A stretch of DNA of 64,000 bases from Arthrobacter sp. ISL-5 (GTDB lineage: Bacteria; Actinomycetota; Actinomycetes; Actinomycetales; Micrococcaceae). How positions within the stretch are numbered: position 1 is the first letter of the stretch; every line of letters starts with the position of its first letter. The DNA is taken from assembly GCF_018613835.1 (NCBI RefSeq), contig NZ_JAGGPM010000028.1, positions 62,001-126,000 on the forward strand, read 5' to 3'. Under the pieces are notes generated by a model that saw only the letters and a list, made by a program, of their open reading frames with translations, ran no database searches and was not told the DNA's origin. Of the stretch, positions 52,201 to 61,069 are shown piece by piece. A program made the position numbers and the translations under genes.

Positions 52201-52687
52201 ATCCGCCGCCGATCCGCTGCCGGAGGGCGCCACGGATGACGCACCCCGTTCCGCCGTTCTGCGGGGCCAGGTGGACCGGCTGGAGATCGACTCCGCCGGA
52301 CGGCTGGTCATCGTCGACCTCAAAACAGGAAAGAGGCAACCGGGCAAGGCTGAGCTGGGCCGGCATCCGCAGCTGGGCGCTTATCAGGCTGCGGTCCTCG
52401 CCGGAGGCTTCAGCGGTTCCCTGGACGTTTCCGGGGACGCACAGCCGGGCGGTGCCGTGCTCGCCCAGCTGGGAACCAGCGCCAAGAGTCCGGGCGTCCA
52501 GCACCAGGATCCCCTTGATCCGGGGGAGAACTGGGCATTGGACATGGTCAAGGAGGCGGCCGACGTGATGTCAGGCCATGAGTTCGAAGCCAGGCACGAT
52601 CCCTCCAAGAGCGGCTTCGGCGGTCACGGCTGCCGTCTGCCGGAGGTATGCCCCCTGTGCGCACGCGGAAAGCAGGTCACCGAATGA
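49295..52687 (+). CDS. adnA: AdnA-like helicase-nuclease subunit (UvrD-like motor, RecB-type nuclease)
   Basis: A 1130-residue subunit of the actinobacterial AdnAB end-resection complex, which processes DNA double-strand breaks. Walker A is GAPGTGKST (residues 68-76). Where an active motor has DExQ, this one reads LILVDDIHEANP (about 278-283), a degenerate Walker B as expected for the regulatory AdnA motor. The C-terminal nuclease has LRGQVDRLEIDSAGRLVIVD then LKTGKR, the Asp...Asp-x-Lys active site of RecB nucleases. Cysteines in CRLPEVCPLCARGK near the end look like part of an Fe-S cluster site. The start is GTG, in overlap with the ATL gene, and the stop overlaps adnB. Confidence 0.88.
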   Translation: MTATITQSETFSEATGRRDQSAGVPVSPGSGLRLLPPRQVHNAVPVLSADQLAAVEVPRGAGPVLVPGAPGTGKSTVLIEAAVRRVEAHSVDPERILILAPGRLAADTLRDRFTARLNRSLSTTPARTWASYAFDLIRRAKAEGILPLPRAPRLLSGPEQDLIIKELLDGHTLPGLGLPWPADLDAALPTRGFRQEVRQLFDRIIESGRTAADLADLGHECGRPDWIAAAALYAEYRDVLDLRMPEAFDPAGIITAARQLFQDSPDFLAAERDRLQLILVDDIHEANPAVFELLADVAAGKDVFVASSPDTVVQGFRGARPDLVAELPRLLGGDGQDVLERPLRHAHRHRPAVAQAWRGVADRISLRAGGKLARRLEQYPAEHAPDEHAHRPSSTGDTGARPAGNPGGTVEAHLLPSAVHELRYVAQRILEAQVNDGRELADMAVIVRNGGQLSQLQRYLSGQGIPVRIPVAESAVRDEVAVRPLLDAYAVVLDPDVLTPESAVSLLTSRIGGATSLELRRLRQSLRREEILGGGGRSSDALLVEALLEPGALGSLGIEGRSARRVARMIQAGRKATTEAGANAETVLWALWNSTGLAGSWTAAALSGGLVGARADRDLDAMMALFHTAERYVDQMPGSGPDQFLEYLLNQELPMDTLAARAQVDDAVELMTPASAAGREWPFVIVAGLQEGVWPNTRLRGELLGSTLFADAVEHGVDYALQRGPLSRLREIRYDELRSFSTAVSRAKEVLICTAVASEDEQPSSFLDYVAPLMPDQDARGFTPVERPLTLRALVAELRQHAQLADRSAAEADEAVRVLARLATVDPPVPGAHPDTWWGLAPLSSEERVVPPGGTVYVSPSKVESVQKSPLDWFIQAAGGEAATDFARSLGTLVHAIAQDLPDASGAEYLAELVKRWPSLGMKDNWEGKLDFRRAETMVRKLAQYILVMRSEGRRLIGVEQDFEVQLSESAADPLPEGATDDAPRSAVLRGQVDRLEIDSAGRLVIVDLKTGKRQPGKAELGRHPQLGAYQAAVLAGGFSGSLDVSGDAQPGGAVLAQLGTSAKSPGVQHQDPLDPGENWALDMVKEAADVMSGHEFEARHDPSKSGFGGHGCRLPEVCPLCARGKQVTE

Positions 52688-55600
52688 GCCGCCCCGCGGA
52701 CCTCCCTGCACCAAGGTTCAGTCCCGAAGATCTGTCCGTCCTGCTCGGCGAGAAGAACGTGCCCACCGCAGAACAGTCAGCCATCATCTCCTCGCCGCTG
52801 ACCCCCCGGCTTGTTATTGCCGGTGCGGGTTCGGGCAAGACCGCCACCATGGCCGACCGGGTCGTGTGGCTGGTCGCCAACGGCTGGGTGAAGCCGGAGG
52901 AAGTCCTTGGAGTCACCTTCACGCGGAAAGCCGCCGGCGAGCTGGCAAGCCGCATCCGGGCCAAGCTGGCCGCACTGCAGCGGATCGCGGAAGCCGATGC
53001 CGGCAACGCGGTGTTTCCGGCCGGCCTGCTCAGCGCCGACGCGCTGGAACCTAAGGTCTCCACGTACCACTCCTTTGCCAGCGGCATCGTGTCCGACTAC
53101 GGGCTCCGGCTTGGCATCGAACGTGACGTTGTCCTGCTGGGCGGGGCACAGGCCTGGCAACTTGCAAGCGAGGTCGTCGAGGCGTTCGACGGCGACTACT
53201 CCCATTTCCGGGTAGCCAAGTCAACACTCGTCAAGGCCGTCATGCAGCTCGCCGGCGAGTGCGCAGAGCATCTCCAGGACCCCGCCGGGGTTCACGACTG
53301 GCTCATGCAGCGGCTGGCAGAATTCGATGCCCTGCCGTACGTGGCGGAGGCGAAGAAGAATCCCAGCCAGGCCGCCGGGGAGCTGGGCGCCATGCTTCGA
53401 ACGCGGGCGAGCGTTGCGGAGCTCGTGGGCCGGTACTCCGAGGCCAAAAGGGCCCGGGGTGCCCTCGACTTCGGCGACCTCGTGGCGCTCGCCGCCAGGG
53501 TGGCCCGCGAGATTCCTCTCGCCGCGGAGATGGAGCGTCAACGCTACAAGGTGGTGCTCCTGGACGAATTCCAGGACACCTCGCATGCGCAGTTGGTCCT
53601 CTTCTCCAGGCTGTTCGGAGACGGTCACGCCGTCACGGCTGTGGGCGACCCCAACCAGTCGATCTATGGCTTCCGCGGCGCGTCCGCCGGTCAGCTGTTC
53701 CACTTTGTCAGCGAATTCCCCGTCCGGCTGGATGACGGGGAGGAAGGGCCGGCCCGGTTTAGCCCGGCCCCGACCTCCTACCTGACCACCGCCTGGCGGA
53801 ACGGGCGGAACATCCTGGCGGCGGCCAATGTCATTTCGGCACCGCTGAGCGCCGCTGCCGCTCAGGCCGGTCCGGCCGGAGAACGGACGTCAGCCGCGTC
53901 CGTCGAGGTGCCGCCCCTGCAGCCCAGTCCGGCCGCCGTTCAGGGCCGGGTGATCCTTGGACGCTTCGCCACGGATGAGGATGAGGCCGCCGCCATCGCA
54001 CGGGACCTGCTGAAATACCGGGTCACCGACTTCGATCAGTCATCAACTGCATCACCTGTGCCGCCGGCCATGGCCGTGCTGTGCCGCCGGCGGGCCCAGA
54101 TGGAGTGCATCAGGCGCGAGTTTGAGGCGCAGGGGATTCCCTACGAAATCGTGGGTCTCGGCGGCCTGCTGGACACGCCTGAAATCGTCGACCTGGTGTC
54201 GACGCTTCGGGTCCTTGCTGACCCAGGCCGGTCGGATTCCCTGATGCGGCTGCTCGCCGGTGCACGGTGGCGGATCGGCACTGCTGACCTCATGGCGTTT
54301 CGAGACTGGTCCGCATTTCTGGCGCGGCGCCGCGGACAGAGCGCGGCCGACGATGCGGCGGCAGCGGGCGGGAGCGACGAGCCGCCGGCCGACGTCGTCA
54401 TCGAGGGTGACCTTACCGACGCTTCCAGCCTGGTTGAAGCCCTGGACTGGCTGCCCAAGGAGGGCTGGACCTCGGCACATGGCCGCACGCTGACAGCCCC
54501 GGCGCGGGACCGGCTGCAGAGGCTGGGCACGGAACTCAGGCAGCTGCGCGGACTATTGGGGGAGGACCTGACCACGCTCCTGGGTGAGGTGGAGCGGGCC
54601 ATGCTGCTAGACATCGAGGTTGCCGCGCGCCCCGGGTTCAGCATTCACCAGGCGCGAAGGAACCTGGATGCGTTCCAGGATGCGGCTGCCGGATTCCTGC
54701 AGACGTCCCACCGCGTGGACGTCCTCGCGTTCCTCGCATGGCTGGAAGCCGCAGCCGCCGAGGAAGGGGGCCTCGACGTTCCGCCGGCAGACGTTAACCA
54801 TGAAGCTGTCCAGCTGTTGACCGTGCACGCTTCCAAAGGGCTCGAATGGGATGTCGTCTTTGTTCCGGGCCTCAACAGCGGGGCCTTCCCCAGCAGCCGT
54901 GATTCGCGGTGGAGCAGCGGTTCCGCCGCATTGCCCTGGCCCCTCCGCGGCGACAGGGCAGACCTTCCGCAATGGGATCTCGACCAGCCCGACCAGAAGG
55001 GGTGGCTGGACGCTGAGAAGGACTTTAAAGGCGCCGTCCAGGCCCACGGCGAAGCCGAGGAACGGCGGCTGGCCTACGTTGCGTACACAAGGGCCAAACA
55101 CGTGCTGTGGGTTTCCAGCGGTGCGTGGGTCGGCGGCCGCGGCGGAATGGCCGAGATGTCGCCGTTCCTCGCCGAGCTGGGACCGCTCGCCGGGATCGGA
55201 ACAGCCGCGGGCACGCTACCGGGCCCTGCCGCCACAGCAGGGATCCACCCCGACTCCGTGGACGAGGAGTCCCTTCCGGACGAGAGCCCCCTGACGCGGG
55301 ACCTTGAAGTCGCCATCTGGCCGTACGACCCCCTCGAAGGCCCTGTTGATCCGCGCACCGGCAAAAGGCTTCGGCTCGTTCCCGGGCGGCGGGCGGCCAT
55401 GGACTCCGCTGCGAGCCGGCTGCGGACCGAAATAGGGGCCATCCAAGAGTTGGCCTTTGACGGTCAGCCGGAGCTTGACGCTCAGCCGGAGCGGCCGGAG
55501 CTTATCGGCCGGCCGCGAACGCCGCTCCGACCCCATGCTGCTGGTTGGGCACGGGAGGCTGCGCTGCTCCTGGAGCGCCGCGCCCGCCGTGCGCAAAGCC

Positions 55601-56211
55601 GGGACGTCCACTTGCCCGGGCACATTTCCGCATCCACCCTCGTTGACCTCGGGGAGGATCCCGGGGCTGTCCTGCAGCGGCTGAGGAGACCCGTGCCGCG
55701 CGAGCCGGGGATGTCCGCCCGCAAGGGCACGGCGTTCCACGCCTGGGTCGAGGAGTACTTCGGAACAGCAGGCATGCTGGACCTCGATGAAGCGCCCGGA
55801 TCTGACAACCACATAGACGAGGCGTACGGCCTTGAGGACATGGTCGCCACGTTCAGGGATTCCCCTTGGGCACACAGGTCTCCGGCCCACGTCGAGGTGC
55901 CGGTCGAAACCCGGGTCGGCGAAGTCGTGGTCCGCGGGCGGATCGACGCCGTGTTCCGCGATGCCGACGGCTGCTGGGACCTCGTGGACTGGAAGACCGG
56001 CAGGCGGCCGTCCGCCGGGCAGCTGAAAACGAAGAGCGTGCAGCTCGCTGTCTATCGGTTGGCTTGGGCGCGGCTCAAAGACGTGCCGCTGGATGAGGTG
56101 CGGGCTGCCTTCTACTACGTAGCGGACAACCACGTGGTTCGCCCCCATGACCTGGCGTCGGGGGCCGAGCTGGAGGGAATTGTCGCGTCGGCCTTTGCAG
56201 CCCCGGGTTAA
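52684..56211 (+). CDS. adnB: AdnB-like helicase-nuclease subunit (UvrD-like motor, RecB-type nuclease)
   Basis: A 1175-residue partner of AdnA and the probable lead translocase. Walker A is GAGSGKTA (residues 47-54), motif Ia region VTFTRKAAGELASRI, Walker B VVLLDEFQDTSHAQL (about 293, intact), and GDPNQSIYGFRGA and LLTVHASKGLEWDVVFVPGL are motifs III and V. TRAKHVLWVSS is motif VI. The nuclease domain near the end is VRGRIDAVFRDADGCWDLVD followed by WKTGRR, again Asp-x-Lys. The ATG at 52684 overlaps the adnA stop (ATGA); a longer start would lie inside adnA. The two proteins act as a heterodimer on DNA ends. Confidence 0.9.
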   Translation: MSRPADLPAPRFSPEDLSVLLGEKNVPTAEQSAIISSPLTPRLVIAGAGSGKTATMADRVVWLVANGWVKPEEVLGVTFTRKAAGELASRIRAKLAALQRIAEADAGNAVFPAGLLSADALEPKVSTYHSFASGIVSDYGLRLGIERDVVLLGGAQAWQLASEVVEAFDGDYSHFRVAKSTLVKAVMQLAGECAEHLQDPAGVHDWLMQRLAEFDALPYVAEAKKNPSQAAGELGAMLRTRASVAELVGRYSEAKRARGALDFGDLVALAARVAREIPLAAEMERQRYKVVLLDEFQDTSHAQLVLFSRLFGDGHAVTAVGDPNQSIYGFRGASAGQLFHFVSEFPVRLDDGEEGPARFSPAPTSYLTTAWRNGRNILAAANVISAPLSAAAAQAGPAGERTSAASVEVPPLQPSPAAVQGRVILGRFATDEDEAAAIARDLLKYRVTDFDQSSTASPVPPAMAVLCRRRAQMECIRREFEAQGIPYEIVGLGGLLDTPEIVDLVSTLRVLADPGRSDSLMRLLAGARWRIGTADLMAFRDWSAFLARRRGQSAADDAAAAGGSDEPPADVVIEGDLTDASSLVEALDWLPKEGWTSAHGRTLTAPARDRLQRLGTELRQLRGLLGEDLTTLLGEVERAMLLDIEVAARPGFSIHQARRNLDAFQDAAAGFLQTSHRVDVLAFLAWLEAAAAEEGGLDVPPADVNHEAVQLLTVHASKGLEWDVVFVPGLNSGAFPSSRDSRWSSGSAALPWPLRGDRADLPQWDLDQPDQKGWLDAEKDFKGAVQAHGEAEERRLAYVAYTRAKHVLWVSSGAWVGGRGGMAEMSPFLAELGPLAGIGTAAGTLPGPAATAGIHPDSVDEESLPDESPLTRDLEVAIWPYDPLEGPVDPRTGKRLRLVPGRRAAMDSAASRLRTEIGAIQELAFDGQPELDAQPERPELIGRPRTPLRPHAAGWAREAALLLERRARRAQSRDVHLPGHISASTLVDLGEDPGAVLQRLRRPVPREPGMSARKGTAFHAWVEEYFGTAGMLDLDEAPGSDNHIDEAYGLEDMVATFRDSPWAHRSPAHVEVPVETRVGEVVVRGRIDAVFRDADGCWDLVDWKTGRRPSAGQLKTKSVQLAVYRLAWARLKDVPLDEVRAAFYYVADNHVVRPHDLASGAELEGIVASAFAAPG

Positions 56212-56234
56212 GGCGCCTTGGGTTAAGGCGCCTT
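56205..56234. terminator. 15-bp tandem duplication forming a hairpin and carrying stop codons of both convergent genes
   Basis: GGGTTAAGGCGCCTT occurs twice in exact tandem (56205-56219 and 56220-56234). Because AAGGCGCCTT is self-complementary, the two copies form a 10-bp stem with a GGGTT loop. The first copy gives the adnB stop (TAA at 56209-56211) and the second gives the stop of the opposite-strand kinase-like gene. There is no T-tract, so terminator strength is uncertain. Confidence 0.65.
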
Positions 56235-57605
56235 AGCGTCCACGATGGTGATGGCTGTCGTGGAGGTGTCGTCGGCGGAGAGCGGCTTGGGCTGCGTCGG
56301 CGCTTTGCTGTCGCGCGGGTGGTCTTCTGAGTCCGGGCCGGCAGCCGCGTCCACGCTGCCGCCTGCATCCACCGCGCCGGCCGCGGCCACGGTGTCAGGA
56401 GCGTCCACAGCGGCGGGAGCATCCGGCGCATTGGCCGTGTCCTCGTCGGCCGGGATGGGCATGACGTGAACGGCCGGCATCGGTTCGGAGACGTCGGTGG
56501 CTGCCGGCGCCGCAATCAGCTCGGCCGGAACCGGACCGCGTGAAACCGGGGCAGCTGAAACCGGGTCGTCCGCTGCCGATCGGGGCGCACCTGAAACCGG
56601 CACACCTGAAACCGGCCCAGCTGAAACCGGTGCAGCAGATCCCGGCGCAGCCGCCGGTGACGGCAGGGGCTCCACACTGATGGGCTGCCCGCCGTGCTCT
56701 GCAATGTCGTCCGCCAGCGTGGCCAGCATGCCTTCCGCCTCGGCAATCATCTCGGCATCGGCGGCGGCAATTCCCTTGACCAGATATTGCGCCAGCGCGA
56801 ACTCCGCGGACAGCGCCGCCCTCCGGAGCAGGTGACTGTCGGGTGCGTCGCGGCGGTGTTCGGTGTAGTGGCGCACCACCGCCTCCACGAAGTCGTGCTC
56901 GTTGGATGCCACGAGCCAGGCGAGGTCGTCGGCGGGGTCGCCGATTCGCAGATCGGTCCAGCCGGTGACGGCGGTGACCCGGTCCTCCTCGACGAGCAGG
57001 TTGTCCTCGTGGAGGTCGCCGTGGACCACGCACGGATTGAAGCGCCACAAGGACACGTCCTCCATGGCGTGCTCCCAGCGGCGAAGAAGCAGGGGCGGAA
57101 TCTTGCCCGTGGTCGCGGCCATGTCGAGCTCGTTCAGCCTGCGCTGGCGGAACTCGTTGGGGGTGTAGCTCGGCAGATCGGCGTTGCTTACCAGGGCACG
57201 GGGCAGGTCATGGATGGCGGCCAGGGCCGTTCCGATCTCCTTCGCCAGCTCCTGTGACCCCGCTGTCAGCTCCTCAACCGTGCGCGTGGAGCCATTGAGG
57301 TGGGAGTACACAAACGTGCTCAGGTTCTGCTGGCGGACGGTCCCGGCCACGGTCGGCATCAGAAAGGGAAGGTCCGCCCGGATGGCCGGGGCGAAGGCCC
57401 GCAGCACCAGGAATTCGGTCTCCAGCCGCGTGCTCGCCTCCGCATGGCGGGGCGAGCGGACCCGCCAGCGCTTGCCTTCGGAGTCGAGCAGGAGAGCCGA
57501 ATCGAAGTCCGCCGGATCATCCGGGGCGGAACTCACTGCAGTCGGGCTCAGTCCGGGGACTGCCGCGGTTGCCACAGCTGCCAGTTCGATCGGTTCTCTT
57601 CTCAC
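56223..57605 (-). CDS. APH-fold phosphotransferase-like protein with degenerate active site and repetitive tail
   Basis: A 460-residue protein from a GTG at 57603-57605 (VRREPIELAAVATAAVPGLS). The first ~280 residues fold like aminoglycoside/macrolide phosphotransferases. The catalytic loop is intact (VVHGDLHEDNLLVEEDRVTA), but the Mg2+-binding Asp of the usual I-D-W motif is Gly (AVTGWTDLRIGDPADDLAWL), and the nucleotide-binding Lys position reads Arg (RWRVRSPRHAEAS). This suggests a weak or inactive kinase. Residues ~315-400 contain Ser/Pro/Val repeats (SAAPVSAGPVSGVPVSGAPR). In actinobacteria a homologue commonly sits between adnB and nudC, so a resistance label is inappropriate. A larger reading frame upstream overlaps nudC and is rejected. 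Confidence 0.82.
   Translation of the reverse strand: MRREPIELAAVATAAVPGLSPTAVSSAPDDPADFDSALLLDSEGKRWRVRSPRHAEASTRLETEFLVLRAFAPAIRADLPFLMPTVAGTVRQQNLSTFVYSHLNGSTRTVEELTAGSQELAKEIGTALAAIHDLPRALVSNADLPSYTPNEFRQRRLNELDMAATTGKIPPLLLRRWEHAMEDVSLWRFNPCVVHGDLHEDNLLVEEDRVTAVTGWTDLRIGDPADDLAWLVASNEHDFVEAVVRHYTEHRRDAPDSHLLRRAALSAEFALAQYLVKGIAAADAEMIAEAEGMLATLADDIAEHGGQPISVEPLPSPAAAPGSAAPVSAGPVSGVPVSGAPRSAADDPVSAAPVSRGPVPAELIAAPAATDVSEPMPAVHVMPIPADEDTANAPDAPAAVDAPDTVAAAGAVDAGGSVDAAAGPDSEDHPRDSKAPTQPKPLSADDTSTTAITIVDAKAP
56549..56640 (-). repeat. Imperfect TGAAACCGG repeats in the kinase-like protein tail
   Basis: TGAAACCGG recurs about five times at spacings of about 15-45 bp and encodes Pro-Val-Ser-x-Gly-type units on the minus strand. 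It accounts for most of the low-complexity linker. Confidence 0.75.
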
Positions 57606-57758
57606 GCTTCCACGGTAGATTGACTCGCGTTCAAGACAACGATGTGTCGCGGCGAGTCTTGAGATCCAGCCGAAATATGAGCCTTCCGCCGCCTGAAACC
57701 GGGCCGCCAGGGGCCTGCGGAAATGTGAATTGTCACCCCGAGTCAGTACGGTGGATAC

Positions 57759-58811
57759 ATGAGTCATGCGGAGGCCGCTGCGCCGGTCAGTCAGCAGTTG
57801 GGCCGGTCGCCGGAAAATCAGCTGTCCAAGGGTGATTTGCCGGCCAACCACCTCTTCGACACCGTACTGCCGGTGCGCCCGGCCCTGGTGAACCGCGGAT
57901 CCGTTGAGCGGATGAAGCCGAATCTCGTCGAAGACCTGCTGGCGCGCGGCGGCGCCCAAGCCATGGTCCTCTCCGGCAGGCACGGCCTCATCCACCGTGA
58001 CGCCCTTGTCCTGACGGACGCCGCCCGGCTGCTGGATCGGCTCCGAAGTGCAGACTCCGGACCCTCGCTCGTCATCTACCTTGGCTCTGCACTGGAGAAC
58101 TCCGACCTGCCGGCAGGGACGGAGATCCTGCTCTTCATCCTGCCCGCGCCGGTGGATCCGGGCACCGCAGGACTCCCCTCGGGCGCCACCTGGGAGGGAT
58201 TCCGCGACGTTGCCGCCCGGCTGGATCCGACCAACACGGCCCTTTTCGTAGAAGCCAGCGCCATCGCCAACTGGCATGCCAGCCACACCCATTGCCCCCG
58301 GTGCGGCGCCCCGACCACCGTGGAGACCGGGGGATGGGTCCGGCGCTGCCCCGTTGACAACTCCGAACACTATCCCCGGACCGATCCAGCGATCATCGTC
58401 ACAGTGGTGGGCCCGGACGACCGCCTGCTCCTTGGCGGCGGAGGGCCCCTCGATGCCAAGAACTACTCAACACTTGCCGGTTTCGTGGAGCCGGGGGAGT
58501 CGCTCGAGCAGGCAGTGGTCCGCGAAATTCACGAGGAAGTGGGTGTGCGCGTCAGGGCCTGCCAGTACCTCGGATCCCAGGCATGGCCCTTCCCGGCGTC
58601 ACTCATGCTCGGTTTTACCGCCGTCACGGATGATTCCGAGGCAAAGCCCGACGGCGTGGAGGTCACCCGTGCGCGGTGGTTCAGCCGGGAGGAACTCCAG
58701 GAGGCTGTGCTGAGCGGCGAGATTGTCATTTCCACCAGGCTCTCCATCGCACGGTCCCTGATCGAACACTGGTACGGCGGCGTCATCCAGGACCGGCCCG
58801 CCGACGAATGA
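57759..58811 (+). CDS. nudC: NAD(H) diphosphatase / NAD-cap hydrolase
   Basis: NudC cleaves NADH to NMNH and AMP and also removes NAD caps from RNA. The 350-residue protein has an N-terminal beta domain, then a zinc ribbon CPRCGAPTTVETGGWVRRC whose fourth ligand may be His or missing, as only three Cys are seen. The Nudix box is GFVEPGESLEQAVVREIHEE followed by VG, a canonical GX5EX7REUXEEXGU. The trailing SQAWPFPASLMLGF is the SQPWPFPxS motif specific for NADH pyrophosphatases. The ATG is at 57759; divergent from the kinase-like gene and followed after 125 bp by uvrD2. Confidence 0.93.
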   Translation: MSHAEAAAPVSQQLGRSPENQLSKGDLPANHLFDTVLPVRPALVNRGSVERMKPNLVEDLLARGGAQAMVLSGRHGLIHRDALVLTDAARLLDRLRSADSGPSLVIYLGSALENSDLPAGTEILLFILPAPVDPGTAGLPSGATWEGFRDVAARLDPTNTALFVEASAIANWHASHTHCPRCGAPTTVETGGWVRRCPVDNSEHYPRTDPAIIVTVVGPDDRLLLGGGGPLDAKNYSTLAGFVEPGESLEQAVVREIHEEVGVRVRACQYLGSQAWPFPASLMLGFTAVTDDSEAKPDGVEVTRARWFSREELQEAVLSGEIVISTRLSIARSLIEHWYGGVIQDRPADE

Positions 58812-58936: not shown

Positions 58937-61069
58937 GTGACTACAGAAATTCCTGAAGGCAACGACTCCCTGGAGGACCGCATCCTCGGTGGCCTCGACG
59001 CCGAGCAGCGGGAGGTGGCCAGCACCCTCACCGGCCCGCTCTGCGTACTCGCGGGGGCCGGAACCGGCAAGACCCGTGCCATCACGCACCGGATCGCGTA
59101 CGGCGTGCACTCCGGGGTCTACAGCCCGCAGCGGCTGCTGGCCGTGACCTTCACGGCACGTGCTGCCGCTGAAATGCGCAGCAGGCTGCGCGACCTCGGC
59201 GTGGGCAATGTCCAGGCCCGGACCTTCCACGCCGCCGCGCTCCGGCAGCTCCAGTTTTTCTGGCCACAGGCGGTCGGGGGGACGCTGCCAAACCTCCTGG
59301 ACCACAAGGCACAGATGATCGCCGAGGCCGCGCGCCGGCTCCGGCTCAGCACGGACCGGGCCTCCATCAGGGATCTGGCGTCCGAGATCGAGTGGGCCAA
59401 GGTGTCCATGCTGACGCCTGCCAACTACCTGGAAAACGCCCAGGACCGCGGCAACCCGGGCGGCTTCGACCTCACAGCCGTGGCCAGGGTCTTCCAGTCC
59501 TACGAGGACGTCAAGACCGACCGGAACGTCATCGACTTCGAAGACGTCCTGCTGATTACGGTGGGCATCCTTCAGGAAGACCCGAAGGTCGCCGCCACGG
59601 TCCGCGAACAGTATCGGCACTTCGTCGTGGACGAGTACCAGGACGTGTCCCCGCTCCAGCAACGCCTCCTGGAGCTGTGGCTGGGCGGCCGGGATGAACT
59701 GTGTGTGGTGGGCGATGCCAGCCAGACCATCTATTCGTTCACCGGCGCGTCTCCCCGCCATCTGCTCGGCTTCAAGGGCCTGTACCCGAATGCCAGCGTG
59801 GTCAAGCTGATCCGTGACTACCGTTCAACGCCCCAGGTGGTGAAGCTGGCGAATGACCTGCTGGCGGCCCGCCGCAGCGGAGGCCCGGCGGCGGATGCTG
59901 CTTGGGCCGCACCGCTGAAGCTGGTTGCCCAGCGGAACCCCGGTCCGGCGCCGCAGTTCACCGAGTGCTCAGACGACGAAGCAGAGGCGGCTACCGTGGC
60001 CGCCAAGATCCGCGGCCTGCTCGACGCCGGCACACCGGCCAGCGAAATTGCCATCCTGTTCCGCACCAACGGCCAGTCCGAAGCGTACGAACAGGCGCTG
60101 GCCTCCGCGGGAATCGGCTACCAGCTGCGTGGCGGCGAGCGTTTCTTCGCCCGCAAGGAAGTGCGCGACGCCATCCTCCAGCTGCGCGCGGCCACCCGCG
60201 CCGTCGCGGAGTCGGCGCCGCAGCCGCTGGGCCAGCTCGTCCGCGACATCGTTGCATCGCTGGGGTACACGGACTCCGCGCCCCACAGCGGAGGCGCGCT
60301 GCGGGAGCGCTGGGAATCCCTTGCAGCCCTGGTGGCACTGGCCGACGAGCTCGTGCTGAGCCGCGGCCCGGAGTTCAGCCTCTCGGACTTCGTCAACGAG
60401 CTCCAGGAGCGGTCACTGGCCCAGCACGCGCCCACGGTGCAGGGCGTCACGCTGGCGTCCCTGCACGCCGCGAAAGGCCTGGAGTGGGATGCCGTGTTCC
60501 TGGTGGGGCTGAGCGAAGGCCTCATGCCCATTTCGTTCGCCGACACTCCGGAAGCCGTGGACGAGGAACGCCGCCTGCTGTACGTCGGCATAACCCGTGC
60601 GCGCGAGCACCTGGCACTGTCCTGGTCCACCGCGCGGACACCGGGCGGCCGCGCCAACCGGAAACCGTCACGCTTCCTGGACGGGCTCCGGCCGGATTCC
60701 GTGGCCAGTTCCAGCGTACGCGGCAAGGGTGCCTTGCCCCGGCGGAAGGCAGCCGCGCCAGCGTCCTGCCGGGTCTGCGGCACCATGCTGGCCAGCGGCG
60801 CCGAACGGAAGGTGGGCCGCTGCAGCCAGTGCCCGCCGACCTACGAGGAGCAGACCTTCAACGCGCTGCGGGAGTGGCGCAAGGAAGTCGCCCTGTCAGC
60901 GGAGGTTCCGGCCTTCGTGGTCTTCACCGATGCAACCCTCACGGCGATTGCCGAGGCCCGGCCGGCGTCGCTGGAGGAACTGGCCCGTCTCGCGGGCGTG
61001 GGCCCGTCCAAACTGGAGAAGTACGGCGAAGCCGTCCTCGCGGTCCTGGTGGAAAGCACCACGCTCTGA
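58937..61069 (+). CDS. uvrD2: UvrD2-type superfamily 1A DNA helicase with tetracysteine and HRDC domains
   Basis: A 710-residue 3'-5' DNA helicase. Walker A is AGAGTGKTRAI (residues 39-49), Walker B VVDEYQDVSPLQQR, and later GDASQTIYSFTGA, SLHAAKGLEWDAVFLVGLSE and YVGITRAREHLALSWS complete the SF1 motifs. After the motor comes a tetracysteine module CRVCGTMLASGAERKVGRCS then QC, and a C-terminal HRDC-like domain (LTAIAEARPASLEELARLAG). This architecture is that of mycobacterial UvrD2, in which the tetracysteine motif is needed for full helicase activity and the HRDC domain is dispensable. The GTG at 58937 is the start; the stop overlaps the next gene. Confidence 0.93.
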   Translation: MTTEIPEGNDSLEDRILGGLDAEQREVASTLTGPLCVLAGAGTGKTRAITHRIAYGVHSGVYSPQRLLAVTFTARAAAEMRSRLRDLGVGNVQARTFHAAALRQLQFFWPQAVGGTLPNLLDHKAQMIAEAARRLRLSTDRASIRDLASEIEWAKVSMLTPANYLENAQDRGNPGGFDLTAVARVFQSYEDVKTDRNVIDFEDVLLITVGILQEDPKVAATVREQYRHFVVDEYQDVSPLQQRLLELWLGGRDELCVVGDASQTIYSFTGASPRHLLGFKGLYPNASVVKLIRDYRSTPQVVKLANDLLAARRSGGPAADAAWAAPLKLVAQRNPGPAPQFTECSDDEAEAATVAAKIRGLLDAGTPASEIAILFRTNGQSEAYEQALASAGIGYQLRGGERFFARKEVRDAILQLRAATRAVAESAPQPLGQLVRDIVASLGYTDSAPHSGGALRERWESLAALVALADELVLSRGPEFSLSDFVNELQERSLAQHAPTVQGVTLASLHAAKGLEWDAVFLVGLSEGLMPISFADTPEAVDEERRLLYVGITRAREHLALSWSTARTPGGRANRKPSRFLDGLRPDSVASSSVRGKGALPRRKAAAPASCRVCGTMLASGAERKVGRCSQCPPTYEEQTFNALREWRKEVALSAEVPAFVVFTDATLTAIAEARPASLEELARLAGVGPSKLEKYGEAVLAVLVESTTL

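Follow-up and report, generated by a model that had tools for sequence, protein, structure and literature searches.

The gene at positions 56223 to 57605 of the window (the whole stretch of 64,000 nucleotides analysed here) encodes an APH-fold protein whose family is an order-wide core gene, normally present as a single orthologue in each genome and at the same locus, and whose catalytic residues have been lost repeatedly. In the window's own GTDB family, the Mg-binding Asp of APH enzymes is fixed as Gly. We think it fairly probable that kinase activity was dispensable and was lost in the window's family, and that the protein has been retained for a binding role. An APH-like gene is readily mistaken for an aminoglycoside or macrolide kinase; here catalysis appears to be optional across the order.

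The gene and the fold of its product

The APH-fold gene lies on the minus strand, begins with GTG at 57605 and encodes 460 amino acids followed by a stop codon. The reading frame continues open upstream of that GTG, which was chosen as the start because orthologues start at the same place. An earlier note on this DNA had given the reading frame, coordinates, strand and motifs as we found them, and its placing of the gene between an AdnB-like gene and nudC was borne out by domain matches. The convergent neighbour is an AdnB-like helicase-nuclease with UvrD and PDDEXK_1 domains (52648..56211, plus strand), and the divergent neighbour is NudC (57759..58811, plus strand), which matched the NCBIfam NAD(+) diphosphatase at 211.8 bits (cut-off 158). 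A UvrD2-like helicase follows on the plus strand (58937..61069). A perfect 15-bp duplication, GGGTTAAGGCGCCTT, is present at 56205-56234, where the converging adnB and APH-fold genes end.

The protein consists of an APH/Mph-like kinase-fold domain (residues 1-305; 56691..57605, minus strand) and a low-complexity Pro/Ala/Ser/Asp C-terminal tail (residues 306-460; 56226..56690, minus strand). Pfam PF01636 (APH) matched the protein at 1.1e-23 with 84.6 bits (cut-off 23.2), and sequence matches in the PDB were MphA (4.5e-21) and MphH (6.5e-15). An AlphaFold2 model calculated from 67 sequences, that is, the window's and those of 66 related loci (mean pLDDT 76, pTM 0.73), predicts the full two-lobed APH fold, with pLDDT below 50 at residues 184-186 and 189-196 beside the catalytic loop. 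Foldseek matched this model to MphH with an E-value of 4.6e-15, and an earlier model from 36 sequences (pLDDT 58) likewise matched Mph proteins. The best eleven rows of VIA-align (Z 19.2-21.9, rmsd 3.4-5.1, 272-287 residues) were all APH(2'') or Mph, and the 50 Foldseek and VIA-align matches listed were APH-like kinases and relatives. MphA and MphH, the nearest solved proteins by sequence and by Foldseek, thus share with our protein the fold, the Arg at beta-3 and the HG-D/E loop. In contrast to them, our protein has lost the Mg-binding Asp, scored at best 63.2 bits against the NCBIfam macrolide 2'-phosphotransferase, for which the cut-off is 550, and belongs to a family in which most of the mapped pocket columns are weakly conserved. 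Its closest relatives are found in Arthrobacter and are 94-95% identical.

The catalytic residues of MphH, a crystallised enzyme whose activity has been measured, are Glu196, His201 and Asp214 (PMC5760710). Since MphH aligns without gaps over residues 32-250 of our protein with an offset of one, these residues are equal to Asp197, Asn202 and Gly215 here. That is, the catalytic Asp and Asn of HGDxxxxN are present in the loop HGDLHEDN (residues 195-202; 57000..57023, minus strand), and the Mg-binding Asp of the I-D-W/F motif is missing. In its place, within the motif VTGWTDLRIGDP, the codon GGC (56961..56963, minus strand) encodes Gly215, just as the earlier note had read it. The note had also pointed to Arg50 (57456..57458, minus strand), which sits in RWRVRSP at the position of the ATP-binding Lys in beta-3. 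The Arg is indeed present, but MphA (WVLRIPRR) and MphH (WVLRLPRR) share it, and we rejected it as a sign of degeneracy because Arg is normal in Mph enzymes. Judged by the model and the alignment, our protein has retained the fold and lost at least one canonical catalytic residue, and in that sense it is a pseudokinase, which supports the kind of protein that the note had suspected. From these residues, the protein likely lacks ordinary Mg-dependent kinase activity.

Distribution of the family

An orthologue was found in 288 of 297 genomes sampled from Arthrobacter's order and in 38 of 39 relatives (the own genome being counted in both), in 90 of the 94 sampled genera, and in 274 of the 281 order genomes with a completeness of 90% or more and a contamination of no more than 5%. 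Of the nine order genomes that lack it, seven are assemblies in 250-1060 contigs and the other two are near-complete, at 0.8-0.9 Mb. Some genomes of the order hold a second or third match to the family. In a class-wide sample, 30 of 296 genomes matched at 1e-20; 27 of these belong to the order, and the three matches outside it carry an HGE motif and are of the macrolide-kinase type. When 20 nudC loci of other orders were scanned 7 kb either side where the contig allowed, no match to the family profile at E<=1 appeared, and two scans gave no viral homologues. A contig titled as an Acidobacteria MAG (L096, JABBNV010000018.1) carries an Arthrobacter-type locus whose product is 73% identical over the domain; this contig is probably mis-binned.

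Loss of catalytic residues

Of 220 loci collected, seven were re-fetched duplicates and four were Mph-type outgroup loci. The remaining 209 rows (195 distinct) are the orthologues, from which 87 representatives less than 80% identical were drawn. The window's family accounts for 123 rows, 109 of them distinct; some of its genomes are represented by more than one row because they were drawn from both of two collections.

All 123 rows of the window's family have Gly215 and Asp197, and 120 of them have Asn202. Among the 87 representatives, residue 215 is Gly in 40, Asp in 32, Glu in 6, Ser in 4, His in 2, and Thr, Ala and Asn in one each. The earlier note had suggested that the Asp loss may mark the whole actinobacterial family. 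The loss does extend beyond a private mutation, being fixed throughout the window's family, but it is not a trait of the whole actinobacterial family, because the orthologue is confined to one order in our samples and residue 215 is variable within it. Residue 197 is Asp in 64 representatives, Glu in one and another residue in 22; residue 202 is His in 25, Asn in 18, Ser in 14, Gln in 13, Arg in 7 and others in 10; position 50 is Arg in 79. Both positions 197 and 215 are acidic in 30 of the 87, 197 alone in 35, 215 alone in 8 and neither in 14.

As a control we used the other APH-fold proteins encoded in six order genomes, because the Mph paralogues (3/246 genomes) were too few. Of 78 PF01636 matches in these genomes, 30 entered the comparison, namely five orthologues and 25 others. 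Both acids were present in all 25 others (18 scored by pattern, 7 by eye), with Asn at the third position in 23 and Gln in 2, although this control leans canonical in that the fetched loci were mostly the higher-scoring ones of each genome.

We then placed the changes on a maximum-likelihood tree built without columns 50, 195-197, 202 and 215. At residue 215, Asp was gained or lost at least 11 times (12 if the outgroup is included). The two-acid state changed at least 10 times on the best tree by either count and was lost 10 times if no regain is assumed, and the acid at 197 changed at least 6 times, or was lost 7 times under the same assumption. All these counts come from one tree with 11 open forks, in which the long branches L208, L207, L209, L206 and L195 are uncertain.

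A plausible active site is found in the GTDB families f2, f5, f12, f56 and f58, in 10 of the 14 rows of f13, and, with Gln202, in f9. Therefore, the ancestral role of the APH-fold family was probably catalytic. It could be thought, then, that the family is mixed, with true small-molecule kinases where the triad is kept, pseudokinases elsewhere, lineage-specific roles and no common binding function. The two-acid state does depend on the GTDB family: both acids are kept in 14/14 rows of f13, 6/6 of f15, 4/4 of f5, 4/4 of f58 and 7/8 of f9, and in 0/123 rows of the window's family. However, the losses are also scattered within families (both acids in 3/14 rows of f8), 21 positions are at least 93% conserved in the two-acid class and in the degenerate class alike, and the locus is usually the same. 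We consider a mixed family without a common function unlikely.

It is less probable still that the protein acts as a kinase on a metabolite or protein substrate, either without the usual metal ligand or with a relocated one, such as Glu200. Human CASK, which has GFG in place of DFG, is a kinase without the usual metal ligand. The constancy of Asp197 and Asn202 in the window's family speaks for such a kinase, as do the retention of Arg50 and of the full fold and the occurrence of Glu200 together with Gly215 in the window's family. Residue 200 was acidic in a fraction of 0.42 of the representatives without Asp215 versus 0.12 of those with it, a column that covers the HEDN of the window's family, and Glu200 could conceivably help to hold the metal. 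Among the 87 representatives, no acid column other than residue 200 was clearly commoner where Asp215 is absent. Of the 55 representatives without Asp215, 36 had an acid at residue 218, as had 19 of the 32 with Asp215 (p 0.65 by Fisher's test), so that a takeover of the Asp215 role by residue 218 was rejected. An Asp supplied by a neighbouring residue, which the earlier note had named as the finding that would overturn its reading, did not clearly emerge at any position, residue 200 alone being raised. The absence of another raised column argues against a surviving kinase, and so does the fact that Asp197 itself is replaced by Gly, Ala, Ser, Arg, Gln or Pro in other lineages while the gene is retained.

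Nevertheless, some points run counter to a purely non-catalytic role. An acid at 197 in 65 of the 87 representatives, together with the retention of Asp197 and Asn202 in the window's family, exceeds what a pure scaffold needs. Moreover, Glu215 (6/87) and Ser, His or Gln at 202 need not be fatal to an enzyme: Mph enzymes have His at the position equal to 202, and methylthioribose kinase has Ser and Glu at the positions equal to 202 and 215 (PMC4702295).

Conservation of the fold

Among 307 columns ranked by conservation, the catalytic ones are poorly conserved, standing at 107 (residue 197), 147 (residue 215) and 233 (residue 202). Ten residues were invariant in 87/87 representatives, namely A10, G105, H132, W177, W187, D223, P224, D227, R262 and L297. 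Spore kinases have a structural His/Asp pair (PMC2860764), to which H132 and D227 may correspond by our mapping.

Values of dN/dS were obtained for 20 Arthrobacter-group genes, in 60 of whose 190 pairs the domain dS was 0.05-1. The median was 0.09 (0.03-0.16) for the domain and 0.38 for the tail, the latter being rough, because the pairs listed had a tail dS above 1. Strong purifying selection thus acts on the fold, and pseudogene decay was rejected on the value of 0.09. It appears that in many lineages at once the fold has been retained for a purpose other than phosphotransfer. Returning to loss of kinase activity with retention for binding, the two-lobed APH fold would be kept to bind a small molecule and/or a partner protein. 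Phosphotransfer would be dispensable and would have been lost many times, with the Mg-binding Asp ending up fixed as Gly in the window's family.

The C-terminal tail

A disordered tail of more than 25 residues is present in 56 of the 87 representatives and is absent or short (<=25 aa) in 31. The Pro/Ser/Val tail of the earlier note is confirmed in the window's protein, where a tandem array with a 15-bp unit (56541..56651, minus strand) codes for its PVS repeats. The element CTGAAACCGG occurs five times within the window, four of these inside the tail array, and its 11-base form has 10 copies in the own genome, 2 of them in the window. One copy of this element is intergenic, upstream of the APH-fold gene at 57693-57702. 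A role of CTGAAACCGG as a regulatory element was set aside because 4/5 window copies lie in the tail array, and we treated it as a coding repeat.

The tails share the pattern T-x-x-hydrophobic-x-hydrophobic, which was found in 32 of the 56 tails versus 7.9 expected (sd 2.6; 0/500 shuffles as high) and in 21 of the 41 tails outside the window's family (6.0 expected). Control patterns showed no clear enrichment: Ser in place of Thr gave 13 (9.4 expected), Ala 10 (16.4) and the reversed pattern 10 (8.0). As the pattern was written after viewing the tails, scans over residues and offsets are the fairer test. When all 20 residues were tried at the motif position, Thr gave a z of 10 and the next residue, Gly, 3.3; when 28 offset pairs were tried, +3/+6 gave a z of 11.5, +3/+5 8.9 and +5/+8 5.9. 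Acids were also common before the motif Thr, at -3 in 51% and at -4 in 38% of 39 sites versus about 20% at other Thr residues. The motif is carried by 109 of the 111 Arthrobacter-group tails, in 106 of them within the final 40 residues. In the window it is DDTSTTAITIV (residues 445-455; 56241..56273, minus strand), a conserved candidate Ser/Thr-kinase site in which Thr449 has hydrophobic residues at +3, +5 and +6 and acids at -3 and -4.

In M. tuberculosis, PknA-dependent sites have Leu/Val at +3, Pro at -1 and +2, and acids at -1 and at -3 to -6, and the PknB set of the same study yielded no significant motif (PMC7164672). The tail motif resembles such Ser/Thr-kinase sites and may be phosphorylated; its hydrophobic residues at +5/+6 find no counterpart in that description.

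Following this resemblance, a PknB-type Ser/Thr kinase could phosphorylate the acidic-T-x-x-hydrophobic-x-hydrophobic motif (Thr449 in the window) in the tailed lineages, and the phosphorylated tail might then dock an FHA protein or another pThr reader, in the manner of mycobacterial MviN. The tail of the MviN pseudokinase (ActPs3) is phosphorylated by PknB and recruits FhaA (PMC12599244). The two are alike as actinobacterial pseudokinases with a C-terminal tail, phosphorylation of the tail being a supposition in ours. They differ in that MviN is a transmembrane protein with a domain of the Ser/Thr-protein-kinase type, the type to which the bacterial pseudokinases reviewed there belong, and the window's protein has the APH fold. 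In that review the word 'APH' is absent and aminoglycoside kinases are confined to the discussion and references (PMC12599244). Since the tail is short or absent in 31/87 representatives, phospho-docking cannot be the family-wide function, and the tail is an add-on. A broader picture, in which the protein is a core signalling adaptor of the whole order whose tail takes in a PknB-type signal and docks FHA-type readers, with the old kinase cleft serving as a ligand sensor and catalysis lost about 10 times in parallel, seems to us tentative and rather unlikely. The APH-fold family is a candidate link to Ser/Thr-kinase signalling.

The locus

In loci of other genera, nudC lies divergent upstream of the APH-fold gene in 65 of 76 and adnB convergent downstream in 61 of 76; in Arthrobacter-group loci the counts are 80/80 and 79/80, and contig ends explain some of the missing neighbours. 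This constancy favours the suggestion that the protein works alongside AdnAB or NudC, be it in DNA repair or in NAD-linked signalling. So does a DNA-damage promoter motif of the P1/PafBC type in front of nudC. The consensus of the LexA-independent DNA-damage promoter is tTGTCRgtg-8-TAnnnT (PMC5656591), and a match to it was observed at 57730-57752, 6 bases ahead of the nudC start codon. Of the 123 loci of the window's family, 91 had its core pattern, compared with 1 of 86 others, the chance rate being about 0.24% per strand and region. The PafBC/P1 regulon may include NudC in that family.

However, such a motif pointing at the APH-fold gene was found in 0/209 loci, and the gene is opposite in strand to adnB and nudC except in family f58, where adnB lies upstream of it on the same strand (L202, L203). 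Further, the gene is absent from the 20 nudC loci of other orders, although 17 of them hold a UvrD2 match and 15 an AdnB match scoring 140 bits or more; in most of these loci adnB, nudC and uvrD2 are grouped without it. Because the neighbourhood occurs there without the gene, the APH-fold gene appears to have been inserted, in this order alone, into a neighbourhood that is older. It is kept in one genome with no NudC match (G388), in another with none over the cut-off (G373), and in genomes whose nudC is located elsewhere; in G027 the top-scoring AdnB match is just 33% identical. From the retention of the gene without NudC or with nudC elsewhere, and from the f58 layout, it follows that position tells little about function. 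A functional tie to AdnAB or NudC, which the earlier note had proposed along with an NAD or DNA-end signal as ligand, is unsupported beyond this position, and we regard it as very doubtful. A defence-system role was rejected, as no PADLOC match was obtained at E<=0.1.

Relation to known kinases

The spore kinases YtaA, CotS and YutH belong to Firmicutes. When compared by the pattern of loss alone, they are like the APH-fold family in being APH/choline-kinase-like, in having lost catalysis repeatedly, several classes apparently independently, and in keeping a structural His and Asp (PMC2860764). A non-catalytic role was deduced for them (PMC2860764), and we infer the same for the APH-fold family. 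They differ in that they are spore coat proteins linked to glycosyltransferases (PMC2860764), while the APH-fold gene is actinobacterial and stands at another locus. We found no publication on this APH-fold family in the open-licence literature. Recurrent catalytic loss in an APH-like family has been described before, and the present family stands out in that its gene is core to a whole order. Catalytic and dead orthologues at one locus also offer a natural series on the change from kinase to pseudokinase.

As for the macrolide kinases, six sites near the macrolide pocket of MphH could be mapped, four further sites described in PMC5760710 being outside the alignment. Five of the six are weakly conserved (ranks 258, 301, 167, 245 and 148 of 307), and the sixth, MphH Phe229, which is Trp230 here, is better conserved (rank 54 of 307). 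From these residues, a macrolide would not be the obvious candidate for the ligand. That the gene is a decaying macrolide-resistance gene is hardly credible, for although macrolide kinases are its closest solved relatives, the dN/dS of 0.09, its presence in 274/281 good genomes and the weak conservation at 5/6 mapped pocket sites all speak against decay. Mph-type paralogues with HGEIYPAH and an intact Asp (L217-L220) are sporadic in genomes of the class. With L220 as the query at 1e-30, such a paralogue was found in 3 of 246 class genomes, in contrast to the core syntenic APH-fold gene.
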